A stretch of DNA of 37,534 bases from Gammaproteobacteria bacterium (GCA_018815765.1 JAHIWM010000216.1:1-37534), one strand, 5' to 3'; positions 4,946 to 13,016 are shown, numbered from the stretch's first letter. Notes: generated from the sequence alone by a model not told the origin. Numbers and translations: made by a program.

Positions 4946-5683
4946 TTAGTCAGCTTGAAAAGCATGCACTATGCCTTTCTCTGCAAAATTTAGCAGTATT
5001 TGCTCTGCACCCGACAATAACTGAGTAGGATCCAGTTGTGGCACGTAAGGCGATAACTGCTCCAGCAGTTCAGTCAGGGTCAAACCCGGCTGTTGTGCCA
5101 ATACCTGTAATAACAAAGTGGTCAGTTGATTTAACGCGATAAATTTTACTTCGTCATCAAAATTGCGATGGATCAGTAAAAAACTGGCTTCGACTTCACT
5201 CGGCTGAAACTCAACACAAATTTTATGCACCGGATACTGATACGCCTGAACTGATGCTAAATCAGACAATTGCAGTGCCTGCTGTTTTAGATCCATCACT
5301 GCAAGCCCGACTAGTGCCTTACGGGTTGCCAATTCCAGCTCTAGCCACTCGTAGTGCGCCAATTCCAACATAAAAACAGGGTCATCATCCTGAAGTTTGT
5401 ATTGGTCTTGCAAAAAATCTAAGAAACTTTTGGCTATGGATAAAAAGAATGGATTCTCGCAGCGATAGCCGGCAAAAAACAGCTGTAAACGCTGTTGCCA
5501 TGCTTGCTCTGTGTACAAGGATTTCAATACAGGAAAAGCACTGCTGACAAACCCTGAAACATTGTTAAACAATAACTCCCGATACACATCCAGGCGTTCC
5601 TGCACCACATCGGCTGGTTTTTCGTTCTGCTCTGGAGAGCGTAAATAAGCCACGAACTGATGCTGGACCTGTTGAAATTTCAT
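4946..5683 (-). CDS. DUF2063-type MNIO partner protein (BufC/HvfC-like)
   Basis: MKFQQVQHQFVAYLRSPEQNEKPADVVQERLDVYRELLFNNVSGFVSSAFPVLKSLYTEQAW...; adjacent to DUF692 gene. Confidence 0.88.
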   Translation of the reverse strand: MKFQQVQHQFVAYLRSPEQNEKPADVVQERLDVYRELLFNNVSGFVSSAFPVLKSLYTEQAWQQRLQLFFAGYRCENPFFLSIAKSFLDFLQDQYKLQDDDPVFMLELAHYEWLELELATRKALVGLAVMDLKQQALQLSDLASVQAYQYPVHKICVEFQPSEVEASFLLIHRNFDDEVKFIALNQLTTLLLQVLAQQPGLTLTELLEQLSPYVPQLDPTQLLSGAEQILLNFAEKGIVHAFQAD

Positions 5684-5684
5684 A

Positions 5685-6533
5685 TCAGGCCCTTAACTTC
5701 ATAGAGTCAGTTGGCTGCAGGCGACGAATATGCGCTAGCTCAAGTTGCAGTTGCTGCATATCCGGAATGTTGAAATCCCGCTCCAGCAAAGTCGGAAACA
5801 GGCCATGATGCTGATAAGCTTCAGATAATAAAGCCCAAACCGGATCAGACACATCAGCACCATGGGTATCAATCAATAAGCTGTCATGTTGGCGGTAATG
5901 CCCCGCGACATGACCATAGGTAATACGTTTTGTTGGCAGTCCTTTTAGGAAAGCCAGAGCATCATAGCTGTGATTGACTGAATTAACGTATATGTTATTC
6001 ACATCTAACAGCAGCTTACAGTCGGCTAACTCTAATACCGCATTGGTAAACTCAAGCTCAGACAATTCCTGGCCAGGCGCTGCATAATAAGAGACATTTT
6101 CAATCACTAAAGGCTGCTCAAGAATATCCTGCACCATACGGATACGGTCAGCCACATACACAGCGGCCTCTTCGGTAAAAGGAATAGGTAATAAATCGTA
6201 CAGATGCCCTGCTGCAGAGCAGTAACTTAAGTGCTCGCTGTAGAGCTTAATCTGATGCTCTTTTAAAAAGGCTTTGATTTGACGAACAAAATCCAGATCT
6301 AATGGGTCAGGGCTACCTAAAGACAAAGACAAGCCATGACAAATAAAGGGATAACGTTCAGTTAATTGACGGAATTTTTTCTGGTAAGTACCGCCATAAG
6401 GTAACCAGTTTTCCGGCGCCACTTCGAAAAAGTCGACGTCCGCTTGCGGCTGATCCAATACAGAATTCAGCATTTCTCGCCGTAGGCCTAAACCCACCTG
6501 ATGCGAAGTTAAGCCAAAAGGGAAATCAGACAT
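5685..6533 (-). CDS. DUF692 multinuclear non-heme iron-dependent oxidase (MNIO; BufB/HvfB-like)
   Basis: GLGLRREML, FFEVAPENWL, ICHGLSLSLGS, YSEHLSYC, VIENVSYY, LLLDVNNIYVNS, GHVAGH, IDTHGADVSDPVWAL, LLERDFNIPD match MNIO motif series. Confidence 0.93.
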   Translation of the reverse strand: MSDFPFGLTSHQVGLGLRREMLNSVLDQPQADVDFFEVAPENWLPYGGTYQKKFRQLTERYPFICHGLSLSLGSPDPLDLDFVRQIKAFLKEHQIKLYSEHLSYCSAAGHLYDLLPIPFTEEAAVYVADRIRMVQDILEQPLVIENVSYYAAPGQELSELEFTNAVLELADCKLLLDVNNIYVNSVNHSYDALAFLKGLPTKRITYGHVAGHYRQHDSLLIDTHGADVSDPVWALLSEAYQHHGLFPTLLERDFNIPDMQQLQLELAHIRRLQPTDSMKLRA

Positions 6534-6550
6534 AAAGTCTCCTCAAAGCA

Positions 6551-6574
6551 GTCAGCCTGCCTGTGCAGGCTGAC
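6551..6574 (-). promoter_or_regulatory. Perfect hairpin between precursor gene and MNIO gene
   Basis: GTCAGCCTGC-CTGT-GCAGGCTGAC, 10-bp stem, 4-nt loop, no U-tract on the minus strand. Confidence 0.75.
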
Positions 6575-6585
6575 CCAAGGTGGTA

Positions 6586-6909
6586 TTAAGCCATGCCTCC
6601 GCATTTACCTTCACCACATTTAGCTTCTTTAGTTTTTTCTTTGTCTTTAGCGTCTTTTTTATCGCCGCCACATTTGCCTTCACCACACTTGGCTTCTTTA
6701 TCTTTCGCTTTGGCTTTATCTTCGCCGCATTTAGCTTCTTTATCTTTGGCTTTGTCAGCGCCACATGAGGCTTCGGCGGACGCTAACTGGTAACCAGCAT
6801 TCAGCTGCTCAGCAGAAAACGGATTTGCATTTGCGCTTAAGCTCAAAGTGGCTAACGAACCCAGTACTAAAGCACTGACGGCAACAGCTGTAGTTTTATT
6901 TGATTTCAT
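6586..6909 (-). CDS. Cys-rich secreted RiPP metallophore precursor (HvfA-like)
   Basis: 107 aa; N-terminal signal peptide-like region, Lys/Asp/Glu-rich C-terminus with EASCG, 3x EAKCG, 2x EGKCG; immediately upstream of DUF692/DUF2063 genes. Confidence 0.88.
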   Translation of the reverse strand: MKSNKTTAVAVSALVLGSLATLSLSANANPFSAEQLNAGYQLASAEASCGADKAKDKEAKCGEDKAKAKDKEAKCGEGKCGGDKKDAKDKEKTKEAKCGEGKCGGMA

Positions 6910-7064
6910 AACGATGTTCCTTGTGGTTGCATTAAATTGCCTAAAGTAGACCTGCTATACGAACAATAAATTTCATTATTTTTATATTTTTTGATTTGCA
7001 TCAGGATGGGACCGAAACAAAAGTCCAATAATCCTTGTTATCACTCATTGCAGAGATCCATAAC

Positions 7065-7421
7065 ATGGATTTTCAAGATTACGAAGACAAACTTGTTCAG
7101 ATGCGGTCACAGCAGGTTTTTAAGATCCTCAGCTATCTGAAATCTGTAGCTGACCCCGAAAATCTGCAGCTTTTACACCGCCTTGAAAACACAGATGTAG
7201 AGCAATGGCCAGAAGCTATGGGTATACATCTGTGCAAATCCTTGCATGAACTGAACAGTGAACTTCAATCAATTCTGGCAGCCCAAAGCCAATTTGACAT
7301 AGGGCAATATGGATACTGCGCATCGTGCGAAAAAAAATTAGAACCGCAAAGGCTCTGCTCCGATCCAACAACACAATATTGCCTCGAATGCCAAACGAAA
7401 TTAAACAAAGCCCATCGCTAG
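7065..7421 (+). CDS. DksA/TraR-family C4 zinc-finger-like protein
   Basis: YGYCASCEKKLEPQRLCSDPTTQYCLECQTKLNK (CX2C...CX2C); start MDFQDYEDKLVQ. Confidence 0.72.
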   Translation: MDFQDYEDKLVQMRSQQVFKILSYLKSVADPENLQLLHRLENTDVEQWPEAMGIHLCKSLHELNSELQSILAAQSQFDIGQYGYCASCEKKLEPQRLCSDPTTQYCLECQTKLNKAHR

Positions 7422-8572
7422 TTATTCAATTCGCCAACCATCTCAACAAAGTCAGTAATAGCAGCAATCTCCGTTTCAGACAAAAAGGGATTCCAAACGT
7501 CAGCTAACAATACGTATCTGCTTTCGTCACTTCGATTCCACGCTTCATGCAAATAAGTATCATCGAACAGGAAAATTTTACCTGATTGCCACTCCAGTTC
7601 ACCTATACCACATAAATTTAATCGGCAGTGCTCTGGAATTTTTAATCCCATATGTAAAACGCACCTGCTGTTTGTCACACCCCGGTGAGGCAAAATATGA
7701 GCCTGAGGCCTCAGCACTGAAAAACAAGCTTCAGGACTGTGGTCTGCAATATGCACAAGGGGCAAATTGGCGAGTATCGCAGACGTCTTAGGACAAAGCT
7801 GGTGGGTTTCATCATACTTTTTGCCATGTCTGAAGAAAAACAAAGCATCCCAGTTTCCGCCTGCGGTCAGAGCATTTCCCTGTACATGCTCTGTATAGGC
7901 CGGAATATCGGTTTTATCAGCCAGCATAGCCTCAAGTTCGCCAAGAATAATCGGATATTGATCTTCGTAATAATCTGCAAAAGGGAGCTCTTTGCGATCA
8001 AACATCGGCCTGACAGGAAGACCCGGAATGTAGAGAAAATTCGGATTTTGCCGTTTATCCTCTATGTCCAGAGGAATTGCGCCACTGTACATCCGAATAC
8101 CAGCATCGACTCTAACCAGCTCACTTTTGCCATATTTATTATTTAATTCATCCAGCCAGTCATTCATCACCTCTTTTCTGTAGCGTTCAGCATAATTGAC
8201 CGCATGAATGACTAAGGGCCTGCACCAATGAGGTGTCGAATCGTTGTCTAACCAGAATCCAAAAGAATTCGCAGACTTAAGGGCATATAAATAGGCCTTA
8301 AACGCCTTCTTCTGTTCTCCATTTTTATCTAACAAATGAGCGAGAACCAGTCTGGAAGAATAGGCATCGGCGTTGCCTTTTAACACAAAATGCAAAGTGG
8401 TCACAGCATCGGCAGTCTGAACGATTCGCATCAATAACTCCCCCGTCAGACTATGAAACCATATATCTCGTGGGTATTTTAATAAGCTATCTTCTGCAAT
8501 CAGCAATGCTGTCTTCAGGTCGCCCTGTTGATAGGCCTGTCTAATATTTTCTTTCATTGTTTCTACAAGCAT
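7418..8572 (-). CDS. TPR-containing aspartyl/asparaginyl beta-hydroxylase-family protein
   Basis: LRPQAHILPHRGVTNSRCVLHMGLKIP...WQSGKIFLFDDTYLHEAWNRSDESRYVLLADVWNP typical of Asp_Arg_Hydrox; helical-repeat N-terminus. Confidence 0.85.
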   Translation of the reverse strand: MLVETMKENIRQAYQQGDLKTALLIAEDSLLKYPRDIWFHSLTGELLMRIVQTADAVTTLHFVLKGNADAYSSRLVLAHLLDKNGEQKKAFKAYLYALKSANSFGFWLDNDSTPHWCRPLVIHAVNYAERYRKEVMNDWLDELNNKYGKSELVRVDAGIRMYSGAIPLDIEDKRQNPNFLYIPGLPVRPMFDRKELPFADYYEDQYPIILGELEAMLADKTDIPAYTEHVQGNALTAGGNWDALFFFRHGKKYDETHQLCPKTSAILANLPLVHIADHSPEACFSVLRPQAHILPHRGVTNSRCVLHMGLKIPEHCRLNLCGIGELEWQSGKIFLFDDTYLHEAWNRSDESRYVLLADVWNPFLSETEIAAITDFVEMVGELNN

Positions 8573-8585
8573 CGATCAGACCTTC

Positions 8586-10199
8586 TTATTCCGGAACCAA
8601 ATCAAAAGCGACAGTTAATCGGGTTTGTTCACTTTCAAAAGGTACAGTGCCATGCCACATATAGGATGGAAACAAAACGACATGTCCCGCTATAGGCTTA
8701 ACATACAGGTCGGCATCATTTTTTTGATTTGAAACGGTTTCCATTTCTCCAAACTTAATCCATCCCTGCCCTTGCTGCTCAACTGCCTGGGGAACCTGAA
8801 TATAGTAACAACCACTGATCCAGCCATCATTATGGAAATGGTTACGATGAAATCCTTTATCGGCCAATTTGACTGACCAGGAACCCGTATAACGAAACTT
8901 GTCTTTTTTTCGCTTAAAGAAATAACTTTGCGGGTCTTGCGGCATCGAACTAATAAATTCTTTCACACATAAAGAAATTGCATTCTTAAGTTGGCCGATT
9001 AAAGCAGAGTTTAAATTGAACAAATGCCCCGAAGTTTGCGACCCGTTTCTTAGCGATTGCTCTATCGGATGATTTTTACTCTGATGCAGCTCATAAAGAT
9101 AGTGAACAAGAGCATTATTGAAATCATCCATAGTTCTAAAACCTGCAGGTAGCGGCACAGGATAACAACGCACCATAGTATCGTAGTTATAGATTTCTCT
9201 GTAAGCAGACCAATTGCCCGAGTATTTATAAGATGTCGCCAGCAATGCGATGTCTTCCTGAAGTGGCGCAATGGTTTTTTTTGTCAAGGCGAGGGCCACA
9301 GGTAAAGCCTCATCCGGTTGAAACAGCGATAATCTTATGTAAATCATCAGCCGTTGAAATATGTCCGCATCATGGTACTGCTCAGGTAAAAGATGCATAA
9401 AATCAAGTGCTTCACTGTGTCGGCCAGCACTGTATGCAACATAGGCATTCAAGAAATTCAGGTTAAGTTCTGGTTGACGAATGGCTACGACAGATAATAT
9501 TTCTTCAGCTTGCGATACCCTATTCGCGTTGATCAGCTTAGATACAAAATCTCCAAGTACATCCAGATTAATCTGGCCCTCATTGCATAAATTGGTATAA
9601 AACAAACTCCAGTCACTGTCTTTCTTAAGCCAGAGCATATCAGCCCAGAGTTTCAGACAACGACGATTAAGACTGTTCGTTTTCAGGAATTGAAATAAAG
9701 TTTGATGAGCTTCACGATATAACTCAGGATCGCCAGTCGAAGCTTGTGCCTGAACTCTGAGATAAAAACTATTTTCATGGCCTGGGTTTATGTGGCTAGC
9801 ATGCTTAAGACTCTCAATAGCCTTCAGGTAAAGCCCCTGATTAAAATAGAAAAGTCCGAAGTTATAATGGAAAACATGGTTAGCTGGGTTCAAACTTATC
9901 GCTATTTTATAATTCGACTCGGCAGCCGCGAATTCTTTGATGTCAGCCAATAAATTAGCAAACTGCGCATATAATTCAGAATTCAACTTATCAGACTCAA
10001 TTGCTCTGAGAAAAGCAACTTTACTTTGCTCTTTCTGCCCAAGCTTCTGATAACAAAATGCCAGTATAGACCAGTACCCTTTCAAAGAATCGGCCCAAGA
10101 ACTGAGACTCTGCAACTCAGACAAAGCCTGCTGAATCTGACCACTGCTATACAACTTAGCTGATAATCTGAATCTCTGATTTATTAAAGAGTTCATCAT
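8586..10199 (-). CDS. TPR-containing putative 2OG-Fe(II) oxygenase
   Basis: Multiple TPR-like repeats; C-terminal HRNHFHNDGWISGCYYIQVP...GHVVLFPSYMWHGTVPFESEQTRLTVAFDLVP typical of 2OG-FeII_Oxy_5. Confidence 0.85.
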   Translation of the reverse strand: MMNSLINQRFRLSAKLYSSGQIQQALSELQSLSSWADSLKGYWSILAFCYQKLGQKEQSKVAFLRAIESDKLNSELYAQFANLLADIKEFAAAESNYKIAISLNPANHVFHYNFGLFYFNQGLYLKAIESLKHASHINPGHENSFYLRVQAQASTGDPELYREAHQTLFQFLKTNSLNRRCLKLWADMLWLKKDSDWSLFYTNLCNEGQINLDVLGDFVSKLINANRVSQAEEILSVVAIRQPELNLNFLNAYVAYSAGRHSEALDFMHLLPEQYHDADIFQRLMIYIRLSLFQPDEALPVALALTKKTIAPLQEDIALLATSYKYSGNWSAYREIYNYDTMVRCYPVPLPAGFRTMDDFNNALVHYLYELHQSKNHPIEQSLRNGSQTSGHLFNLNSALIGQLKNAISLCVKEFISSMPQDPQSYFFKRKKDKFRYTGSWSVKLADKGFHRNHFHNDGWISGCYYIQVPQAVEQQGQGWIKFGEMETVSNQKNDADLYVKPIAGHVVLFPSYMWHGTVPFESEQTRLTVAFDLVPE

Positions 10200-10210
10200 T
10201 TTCCCGTACC

Positions 10211-10239
10211 AAAAAAAAGCCAGCCCTAAGGCTGGCTTT
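10211..10239 (-). terminator. Intrinsic terminator/attenuator between TonB receptor and TPR-oxygenase genes
   Basis: Minus strand AAAGCCAGCC-TTAG-GGCTGGCTTT followed by T-run; ends 12 nt before the downstream start codon. Confidence 0.8.
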
Positions 10240-10262
10240 GTACTATAGAGGAAAGCTAATTA

Positions 10263-13016
10263 TTAGAACTTAGCTGAAACACGTCCATAGAAATATGCAC
10301 CAGCTGTATCATAAGATGAGTTCAGCGTGTTCATATCGTTGTTATTTGTAACATATGGAGGTTGCTTATCAAATACGTTACGAGCACCTAAAGTGAAGGT
10401 CAGGTTGTCATAGAAATAACTACCCTGAACATCGTGGTATACGTAAGCGCCAGTTTCGTTAGAAACTTTATTTGGAGCAGCTTGCATGTTTTCTACGTTA
10501 GACTGGAAACGACCAACCCAGCTTACGTTCCAATCGTCAGTGCCATAACCTAAAGTCAGGTTAGTACGTAACTTAGAGAATGCTACAGCACGACCGCCAA
10601 AGTTAGGGTCGATACCGTATTTACCAGCCAGATCTAACACTGCAGCGCCTTCCTGAGACTGGTATGAATACTCAGTCAGGTAAGTACCGTCAAGTCTTAC
10701 ATTCAGACGACCTGCGCCTAAATCTTTGTACCATGAAGCGTCAAAGTCATAACCAGCAGTTTCAAACGTTGCAATGTTTGAAGGTGCGCCAGTAACACCA
10801 ACTACGTAACCCTGGAAGTCACGGAATTGAGAACCTTGCAGACCTGGACGGTCAACAGCACTAGGGCCACCAATTAAAGCACAAGAAGAAGAGCTGAAGT
10901 TCGGGCTGTCATAACAGGACTGAATAACAGCACTGATATTAGGCACACCGATAGCACCTTCGATTTCTACTTTGTAGTAATCGATAGCAACAGTCAGATT
11001 CTCTACGAACTCAGGTGAATAAACAAAACCTACAGTAGTACTTGTTGACTCTTCAGGACCTACGTTAGGGTTACCACCTTCCAGCGTTGCTGATTGGTTG
11101 TTTGGTAACAAGAAGTTACCTGGTAAACCTTCAGCAGCACAGTTAGCTTTCAATGTTGCACTTGCTGATGCGTTAGTCGCATATTCCAGACATGGATCTA
11201 CATACGGAGTATTAGATTCAGCTTGTGGTGAATACAAGTCAGTAATAGTTGGTGCACGGAAACCATCAGCATAAGTTGCACGTACCAATAAGCTAGTTAC
11301 AGGTGAATATTCAACACCAAACTTTTTAGTGATTTGACTTTGCAGGAAGTCGTAGTTAGTACTACGTACTGCTGCAGAGAAATCTAAACGTTCAGCGTAA
11401 GACAAACCTGCCAGAATAGGCACGTTAATTTCAGCATAAGCTTCATCCAGATCGTAAGCACCTTCAGTTGGTTCGCCTACAACACCGTAGATTTCACCAA
11501 TTAATGCGCCACCGTCCGGAATTGATCTGTAACTTTCCCAGCGTTTTTCAACACCAGTAGCCCAACCAATTGAACCGGCTTCAAAACCGAAGTCACCAGT
11601 ATCACCAGTTAAGTTGGCCATAAACTGTTTAGTTACGCCAGTATCAACAGGAGAGTTAGGGATACTACCAAAAGCAACTTGTTCCGGAGTTAAAGAATCA
11701 GCCTGGAACGGGTTCCATAAGCCTACAGCAGTACAACCTGCATCTTCAGCACAAGCTGTTGGATCCAGCATCATATTGTAACGTTTGGTGTTTGCACGAC
11801 CAATATCTAAAGAAGCGTCTGTGTAACGGGCATAGTTATAAGACACATCCCATGACCAGCCGTTCTCTAAGAAGCCTTCGAAGCCTGTAACCATACGGAA
11901 GTCAGAGAAATCCTGGTTGAAGCTACGGCCACCAGTTTCTGTCAGACGACGGCTGATTACCAGATCTTCACCGATAGGGTTATTTGGGTGATCAGCTGTT
12001 ACTGTTGCACCCCAGAAGGTCGCATCTGCAGCCATCAACTGGTCTGATTGACGGTTTGTGTAACCACCTTCTAAGAAGGCTTTTACATCGTCAGTGATTT
12101 CATAGCTGGCGGCTGAGTTGATAGAGAATACGTCTTGTGGTGTAACCAGGTAACTGGCAGTTGCATAGTTATATGAATCTGTTGCTGGAGCATACTTACG
12201 CACAGCACCAGTAGTTGGGTCAACAACATAAGGACCACCAGTTGCATACTGAGAGCCAGGAACAGTAGATGACCAGGTACCAAAAGCGTTAGCACCAGAA
12301 CCAGCGTTGATTAAAGCACCACCAGATTCAGCAAATGGTTGTTTGGAGAAATCACGATCTTTCTGCCAAATCGTATTACGGTTTGCATACTCAAGTGAAA
12401 TAACCACGTTGCCTTTATCGCTTGACGTACCGATGGTAGCACCAACACGAGAAGTTTCACCGTCGCCTTCACCGGCCAGATCGTACTGAGCGGTCAGCTC
12501 AACACCTTCGAAGTTCTTTTTAGTGATGAAGTTGATTACACCAGCTATCGCATCAGAACCATAAATAGTGGAAGCGCCATCACGCAGAACTTCAACACGT
12601 TCGATAAATGCCATTGGGATTGAGTTCAAATCACCAGAAGCATAACGACGACCGTTAATTAATACTAACGTACGCGAAGCACCTAATCCGCGAAGGTTAG
12701 CAGAAGCAGCACCACCACTACCATTGTTAGTGTTAGAACCATTCATACCACCATTCATCGCTGGGATAGAATGAACGAATTTTTCGATGGTTACGTGACC
12801 TGATTTAGCTAAGTCTTCTGCACTGAATACAGTGATAGGACTTGCTGATTCAATATCCGTACGTTTAATACGAGAACCGGTAACTTCAATCCGTTCGACA
12901 TCTTTAGCTTCTTCAGCTTCCTGAGCACTTACTGATCCCGTGAATGCAGCTGTAGAGGCAGCACCGAAAGCAACTGCTAAACGCACCGCTTTGGACAACT
13001 TAGTATTTGTAAACAT
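10263..13016 (-). CDS. TonB-dependent receptor
   Basis: 917 aa; signal peptide, VERIEVTGSRIKRTDIESASPITVFSAEDL, plug NLRGLGASRTLVLINGRRY...VEVLRDGASTIYGSDAIAGVINFITKK, C-terminal YFYGRVSAKF. Confidence 0.95.
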   Translation of the reverse strand: MFTNTKLSKAVRLAVAFGAASTAAFTGSVSAQEAEEAKDVERIEVTGSRIKRTDIESASPITVFSAEDLAKSGHVTIEKFVHSIPAMNGGMNGSNTNNGSGGAASANLRGLGASRTLVLINGRRYASGDLNSIPMAFIERVEVLRDGASTIYGSDAIAGVINFITKKNFEGVELTAQYDLAGEGDGETSRVGATIGTSSDKGNVVISLEYANRNTIWQKDRDFSKQPFAESGGALINAGSGANAFGTWSSTVPGSQYATGGPYVVDPTTGAVRKYAPATDSYNYATASYLVTPQDVFSINSAASYEITDDVKAFLEGGYTNRQSDQLMAADATFWGATVTADHPNNPIGEDLVISRRLTETGGRSFNQDFSDFRMVTGFEGFLENGWSWDVSYNYARYTDASLDIGRANTKRYNMMLDPTACAEDAGCTAVGLWNPFQADSLTPEQVAFGSIPNSPVDTGVTKQFMANLTGDTGDFGFEAGSIGWATGVEKRWESYRSIPDGGALIGEIYGVVGEPTEGAYDLDEAYAEINVPILAGLSYAERLDFSAAVRSTNYDFLQSQITKKFGVEYSPVTSLLVRATYADGFRAPTITDLYSPQAESNTPYVDPCLEYATNASASATLKANCAAEGLPGNFLLPNNQSATLEGGNPNVGPEESTSTTVGFVYSPEFVENLTVAIDYYKVEIEGAIGVPNISAVIQSCYDSPNFSSSSCALIGGPSAVDRPGLQGSQFRDFQGYVVGVTGAPSNIATFETAGYDFDASWYKDLGAGRLNVRLDGTYLTEYSYQSQEGAAVLDLAGKYGIDPNFGGRAVAFSKLRTNLTLGYGTDDWNVSWVGRFQSNVENMQAAPNKVSNETGAYVYHDVQGSYFYDNLTFTLGARNVFDKQPPYVTNNNDMNTLNSSYDTAGAYFYGRVSAKF

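Follow-up and report, generated by a model that had tools for sequence, protein, structure and literature searches.

Why do genes of TonB-dependent receptors travel with genes of cytoplasmic dioxygenases? The question was posed in 2025 for the CciT-CciO pair (PMC12004947), and it is raised again by three adjacent genes in a 37,534-nucleotide stretch of DNA from a Gammaproteobacteria bacterium (GCA_018815765.1 JAHIWM010000216.1:1-37534), hereafter the window. A preliminary description had placed there, on the minus strand, a receptor gene and two oxygenase genes that lie 13 nt apart, and both the coordinates and the Pfam domains agree with it. The receptor of 917 aa (10263-13016) contains a Plug domain (PF07715, 82 bits, residues 56-160) and a barrel domain (PF00593, 88 bits, residues 331-881), both above cut-off, and is therefore a TonB-dependent receptor. 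After 63 nt follows the gene of a 537-aa tetratricopeptide repeat (TPR)-2-oxoglutarate (2OG)-Fe(II) oxygenase (8586-10199), which is separated by 13 nt (8573-8585) from that of a 384-aa AspH-family oxygenase (7418-8572). The cassette is real, widespread and ordered, and it is probably functional; its recurrence suggests that such receptors, or proteins that partner with them, are chemically modified in bacteria.

Conservation and order of the cassette

A homologue of the TPR-2OG oxygenase is present in 55 of 150 Alteromonadaceae genomes, and neighbourhood statistics were taken from 47 loci carrying its gene. A receptor gene lies within 5 kb in 44 of these 47 neighbourhoods. From the density of receptor plug domains (52 in 4.1 Mb, about one per 79 kb) we estimate that some 15-20% would have a receptor neighbour by chance, and AspH genes outside cassettes have a receptor nearby in just 1 of 14 cases (L102-L115). 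Therefore, the pairing goes beyond chance. It extends to Shewanella, Colwellia, Pseudidiomarina, Microbulbifer, Aliikangiella, Woeseiaceae and alphaproteobacteria, so that the co-occurrence beyond close relatives which the preliminary description had asked for was found, across many marine and freshwater bacteria. In a wider named sample, biased toward the best matches, 42 loci had full flanks, and 29 of them contained a receptor. A class-wide profile search returned mostly TPR-only matches, of which those extending into the catalytic domain were used; both full-length homologues on long contigs outside the family sit in receptor cassettes together with AspH and sulfotransferase genes.

The closest cassette relatives of the window receptor are 51-60% identical (loci L062-L065). 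Another tailoring enzyme accompanies the pair in 40 of the 47 Alteromonadaceae neighbourhoods, with AspH in 15, a TPR-sulfotransferase in 21 and an S-adenosylmethionine-dependent methyltransferase in 19. The receptor is the constant element and the enzymes are interchangeable, comprising the TPR-oxygenase, AspH, other 2OG oxygenases, TPR-sulfotransferase, methyltransferase and tryptophan halogenase. The module of a receptor and two hydroxylases proposed at the outset is thus borne out as a conserved receptor/hydroxylase unit, in which AspH is one of several swappable enzymes rather than a defining part. Over 29 loci, receptor and oxygenase distances correlate with r=0.71, and the partial correlation is 0.63 with TtpC as the locus control (permutation p=0.0005) and 0.61 for the catalytic domain of the oxygenase alone. 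This covariation of sequence distances supports the view that receptor and oxygenase form a unit, whether through interaction or through joint transfer.

The receptor gene lies upstream of the TPR-2OG gene on the same strand in 62 of 85 pairs. A strong hairpin with a T tract occupies 35 of 39 receptor-to-oxygenase gaps, where 0.4 would be expected in shuffled sequences; in the window this terminator-like element spans 10216-10239 on the minus strand. The order in which the enzymes follow the receptor therefore stands, but a simple three-gene operon does not, as the hairpin intervenes. Only about 12 nt separate the end of the T tract from the oxygenase ATG, which is too little space for a promoter. 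The enzymes might be made by terminator read-through, below the level of the receptor, or from a promoter within the receptor gene. Fur, Zur, LexA and Crp boxes upstream of the receptors showed no excess over shuffled sequences, and in a crude consensus scan of 81 upstream regions the best Fur-box match was no better than in shuffled ones.

The signal peptide of the receptor (12951-13016, minus strand), which starts MFTNTKLSKAVRLAVAFGAAST, follows a consensus shared by cassette receptors, MytNSKLAKaVRLAlAFGAAST. Pairwise comparison of 31 cassette receptors revealed 52% identity in the signal peptide versus 32% in the mature chain, the corresponding values being 27% versus 54% for TtpD and 62% versus 61% for TtpB. 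Of 30 receptors sampled in the window's genome, just 2 carry the conserved signal peptide, and the receptors in sugar loci are without it. It could serve as a recognition or export-timing tag.

Domains and predicted folds of the two oxygenases

The TPR-2OG oxygenase has no apparent signal peptide and consists of a TPR/helical-repeat domain (residues 2-342, 9174-10196), defined by TPR models and the AlphaFold2 model, and a catalytic domain of the PF13759 family (2OG-FeII_Oxy_5, 84 bits versus a cut-off of 27; 8601-8882). Residues His454, His456 and His516 are invariant in 124 of 124 homologues and Arg527 is found in 122 of them; the enzyme has an H-x-H motif, whereas most 2OG enzymes have H-x-D/E at this place. 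The AspH-family oxygenase belongs to PF05118 (141 bits versus 22.6), and its Asp_Arg_Hydrox domain (7487-7966) holds His296, His307, His342 and Arg352, all invariant among homologues. The catalytic residues are therefore intact in both oxygenases.

The AlphaFold2 model of the TPR-2OG oxygenase, with a mean predicted local distance difference test (pLDDT) score of 95, shows a beta-barrel oxygenase domain preceded by a long helical superhelix. In the PDB, the fold is closest to human AspH (8re8, E 5.6e-9), followed by TPR scaffolds and by OGT and SPINDLY, which are TPR protein glycosyltransferases. The template modelling (TM) scores against human AspH are modest (0.25-0.44), which we would put down to differences in repeat curvature. 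The model of the AspH-family protein (pLDDT 92) begins with an N-terminal helix stack and matches human AspH over its full length (E 7e-19); all top PDB matches are human AspH, and by sequence, too, no solved structure is closer than that of human AspH. Several of the human AspH entries matched by the two models contain its Factor X peptide. Pfam finds no TPR in the AspH-family protein, and NCBIfam gives only weak TPR matches at residues 14-100. N-terminal helical repeats with a C-terminal dioxygenase domain, as first described for both enzymes, thus hold for the folds, but not as a Pfam TPR call for the AspH-family protein.

Since both enzymes are predicted to fold like human AspH, a protein hydroxylase, a polypeptide substrate rather than a small molecule is supported, in line with the preliminary description. 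Human AspH likewise combines helical repeats with a 2OG oxygenase domain, and its metal-binding histidine pair and 2OG-binding arginine align with the window protein. However, it is an endoplasmic reticulum membrane enzyme acting on epidermal growth factor domains, whereas the window protein has no apparent membrane anchor and carries Val305 in place of Arg688. The lipid hydroxylases LpxO and OlsC are members of the same PF05118 family, from which the window protein differs by its extra helical-repeat domain; with 64.9 bits against a cut-off of 500 and 105.5 bits against one of 450, it scored far below the NCBIfam equivalog thresholds and was not assigned to them. Elsewhere, at 7760-11608 of L115 (G045:C44), one strand carries five AspH-family genes in tandem, each encoding about 250 aa.

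The substrate of the cassette enzymes

We tentatively favour, as a plausible rather than a probable reading, that the cassette enzymes modify, in the cytoplasm and before export, the precursor of the receptor or a protein that partners closely with it, with hydroxylation being the reaction of the two enzymes of the window. Two cytoplasmic Fe(II)/2OG enzymes, each with a helical-repeat cradle and an oxygenase domain, would hold an unfolded polypeptide and hydroxylate its side chains. The likeliest polypeptide would be the neighbouring receptor precursor, between translation and Sec export, and the second choice a protein working with the receptor. The receptor would be strongly transcribed, and a leaky terminator behind its gene would provide less of the catalytic enzymes. 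Elsewhere, a sulfotransferase, methyltransferase, other oxygenase or halogenase in the same slot would make the modification chemistry swappable. The conserved pairing and order, the covariation, the AspH-like folds, the conserved signal peptide and the terminator in most gaps speak for this reading. What the analysis itself shows is gene content, conservation, covariation, the terminator and the predicted folds, whereas cytoplasmic location, hydroxylation, the receptor as substrate, read-through expression and an effect on uptake are all points that we infer.

Several observations weigh against this reading. The same signal peptide is found on receptors without neighbouring enzymes, namely in L224 and in a paralogue of the window's genome on contig C246 (G000:C246:3698-6529, L270). 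Shorter oxygenase homologues, among them those in the class-wide draw, have no receptor nearby, and some full-length alphaproteobacterial homologues adjoin unrelated genes, such as a glycosyltransferase gene, again with no receptor nearby; the TPR-2OG enzyme family is therefore not exclusive to receptors. The correlated trees could also have arisen because receptor and oxygenase genes were transferred together as one block, rather than through interaction. In addition, no receptor residue could be linked to whether AspH or a sulfotransferase is present: alignment columns enriched with AspH, sulfotransferase or methyltransferase were of the wrong residue type in the window receptor or confounded by ancestry, and none is proposed as a site. 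Downstream of the paralogue on C246 lies an alkaline-phosphatase-like gene, with no gene of a tailoring enzyme.

The oxygenases might instead act on the imported compound, for instance a siderophore or a peptide, and degrade or mature it. Such a role has been proposed for PiuC, YbiX and CciO and is the published suggestion for pairs of the CciT-CciO type (PMC12004947, PMC12004943). We consider it unlikely here. A trio of receptor, TPR-2OG oxygenase and tryptophan halogenase, with receptors of a subfamily other than that of the window, is found inside a galactoside locus (L101, with GH97, galactokinase GalK, GalT, SSF and LacI) and near GH32/amylosucrase genes in a sucrose locus (L100). Because the same enzyme pairs with receptors in different sugar loci, a ligand is unlikely as the common substrate, and the receptor or its machinery offers the simpler explanation. 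Moreover, TPR cradles are typical of protein substrates, the receptor delivers to the periplasm only while the enzymes are without apparent signal peptides, and Fur or Zur boxes are not enriched upstream. The gaps of 63 and 13 nt leave no space for a precursor peptide gene, which speaks against a biosynthetic cluster for a ribosomally synthesized and post-translationally modified peptide; the HvfA precursor encoded nearby belongs to a separate HvfABC set. The two trios may also bear on the substrate of receptor-linked halogenases.

That the enzymes modify another protein or peptide appears to us rather doubtful; candidates would be a subunit of the TonB2 system, the HvfA metallophore peptide encoded nearby, or a substrate whose gene is not linked. 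The cassette often lies directly before the ttpB(DUF3450)-ttpC-exbB2-exbD2-tonB2-ttpD operon, as in Shewanella, Colwellia and Ferrimonas, and the DUF3450 gene heading this operon is within 5 kb in 25 of the 47 family loci. The TonB2 protein of the window's genome (L205:2422-3042) contains, as in relatives, at least eight consecutive prolines (PPPPPPPPP), a possible target of prolyl hydroxylation. However, DUF3450 is present in all 150 family genomes while the oxygenase is found in 55 only, and the operon is not adjacent in the alphaproteobacteria or in the window's genome, where it lies on contig C55 (L205); it was therefore dismissed as an obligatory neighbour. HvfABC genes adjoin the cassette in the window and in L090 and L091, but Hvf genes occur within 5 kb in just 3 of 47 loci, too few for the HvfA peptide to be a general substrate. 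A further reading, in which receptor and enzymes have no functional connection and have merely come together at one insertion hot spot (near priC/tauE, TonB2 and apt), seems improbable. Cassettes do occupy a recurrent chromosomal site in Alteromonadaceae; yet the pairing is kept at other sites and in other classes, with order, orientation and terminator conserved and with covariation of the two partners.

The receptor precursor thus remains our preferred substrate. Several protein-modifying chemistries in one slot, together with receptors of different ligand types, point to the receptor or its partners, an idea testable by mass spectrometry in common laboratory strains. A wider form of this proposal, which we regard as unlikely in its full extent, is that many proteobacteria decorate receptors before export: the signal peptide would mark the precursor, swappable enzymes would hydroxylate, sulfate, methylate or halogenate it, and uptake, TonB coupling or phage recognition would be altered. 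Should this hold, TonB receptors would generally be subject to post-translational modification, a layer of outer-membrane biology that has so far gone unrecognised.

Neighbouring genes and known systems

The window cassette is flanked by tauE-priC on one side and HvfABC-apt on the other. Elsewhere these are the two ends of a larger locus, so the TonB2 operon has apparently moved out of the window locus. Where a genome lacks the TPR-2OG gene, this TonB2 locus contains either two receptors on their own, a receptor together with a sulfotransferase or methyltransferase, some other large secreted protein, or nothing comparable. The HvfABC set (4946-6909, minus strand), beside apt, encodes an HvfA-like oxazolone/thioamide metallophore precursor with KCGExKCG repeats, the maturase HvfB of the multinuclear non-heme iron-dependent oxidase (MNIO) family, and HvfC; in several other family loci it lies past the TonB2 operon. 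A DksA/TraR-like zinc-finger gene (7035-7421, plus strand) converges on the AspH-family gene with a 4-nt overlap, and a similar gene flanks the TPR-2OG gene in L071 and L075. In E. coli, fiu and ybiX share an operon with the zinc-finger gene ybiI (PMC12004943).

The ttpB-to-ttpD operon beside many Alteromonadaceae cassettes matches, in gene order and families, the TtpB-TtpC-ExbB2-ExbD2-TonB2-TtpD system of Vibrio vulnificus, with which no receptor-oxygenase cassette was described (PMC6957404). Closer to the cassette itself are the known receptor-2OG oxygenase pairs CciT-CciO of Caulobacter, Fiu-YbiX of E. coli and PiuA-PiuC of Pseudomonas (PMC12004947, PMC12004943). CciT strictly requires CciO, and the molecular link is stated as unknown (PMC12004947). 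The arrangement had been put forward as possibly undescribed; this would apply to the present enzyme set, while receptor-2OG oxygenase pairs are known as a type. No description of the cassette was found in the open-access literature (subscription papers and preprints lay outside the search), nor did receptor gene sets with sulfotransferase/TPR or halogenase/SapC genes lead to one there.

The CciO/YbiX/PiuC type has one small PKHD-type oxygenase, whereas the window has a TPR-fused PF13759 enzyme and a PF05118 enzyme, with swappable extras in related loci. The PKHD-type oxygenase belongs to PF13640, and the window enzymes match PF13759 and PF05118 only, not PF13640. CciT-CciO is Fur-regulated; for the cassette receptors, the crude scan of upstream regions gave no Fur-box signal above shuffled sequences. 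The window receptor is of another subfamily. In the three known pairs, the receptor gene lies beside a cytoplasmic 2OG/Fe(II) oxygenase gene and the two are co-conserved across Proteobacteria; the genes of the window cassette are likewise adjacent and co-conserved.

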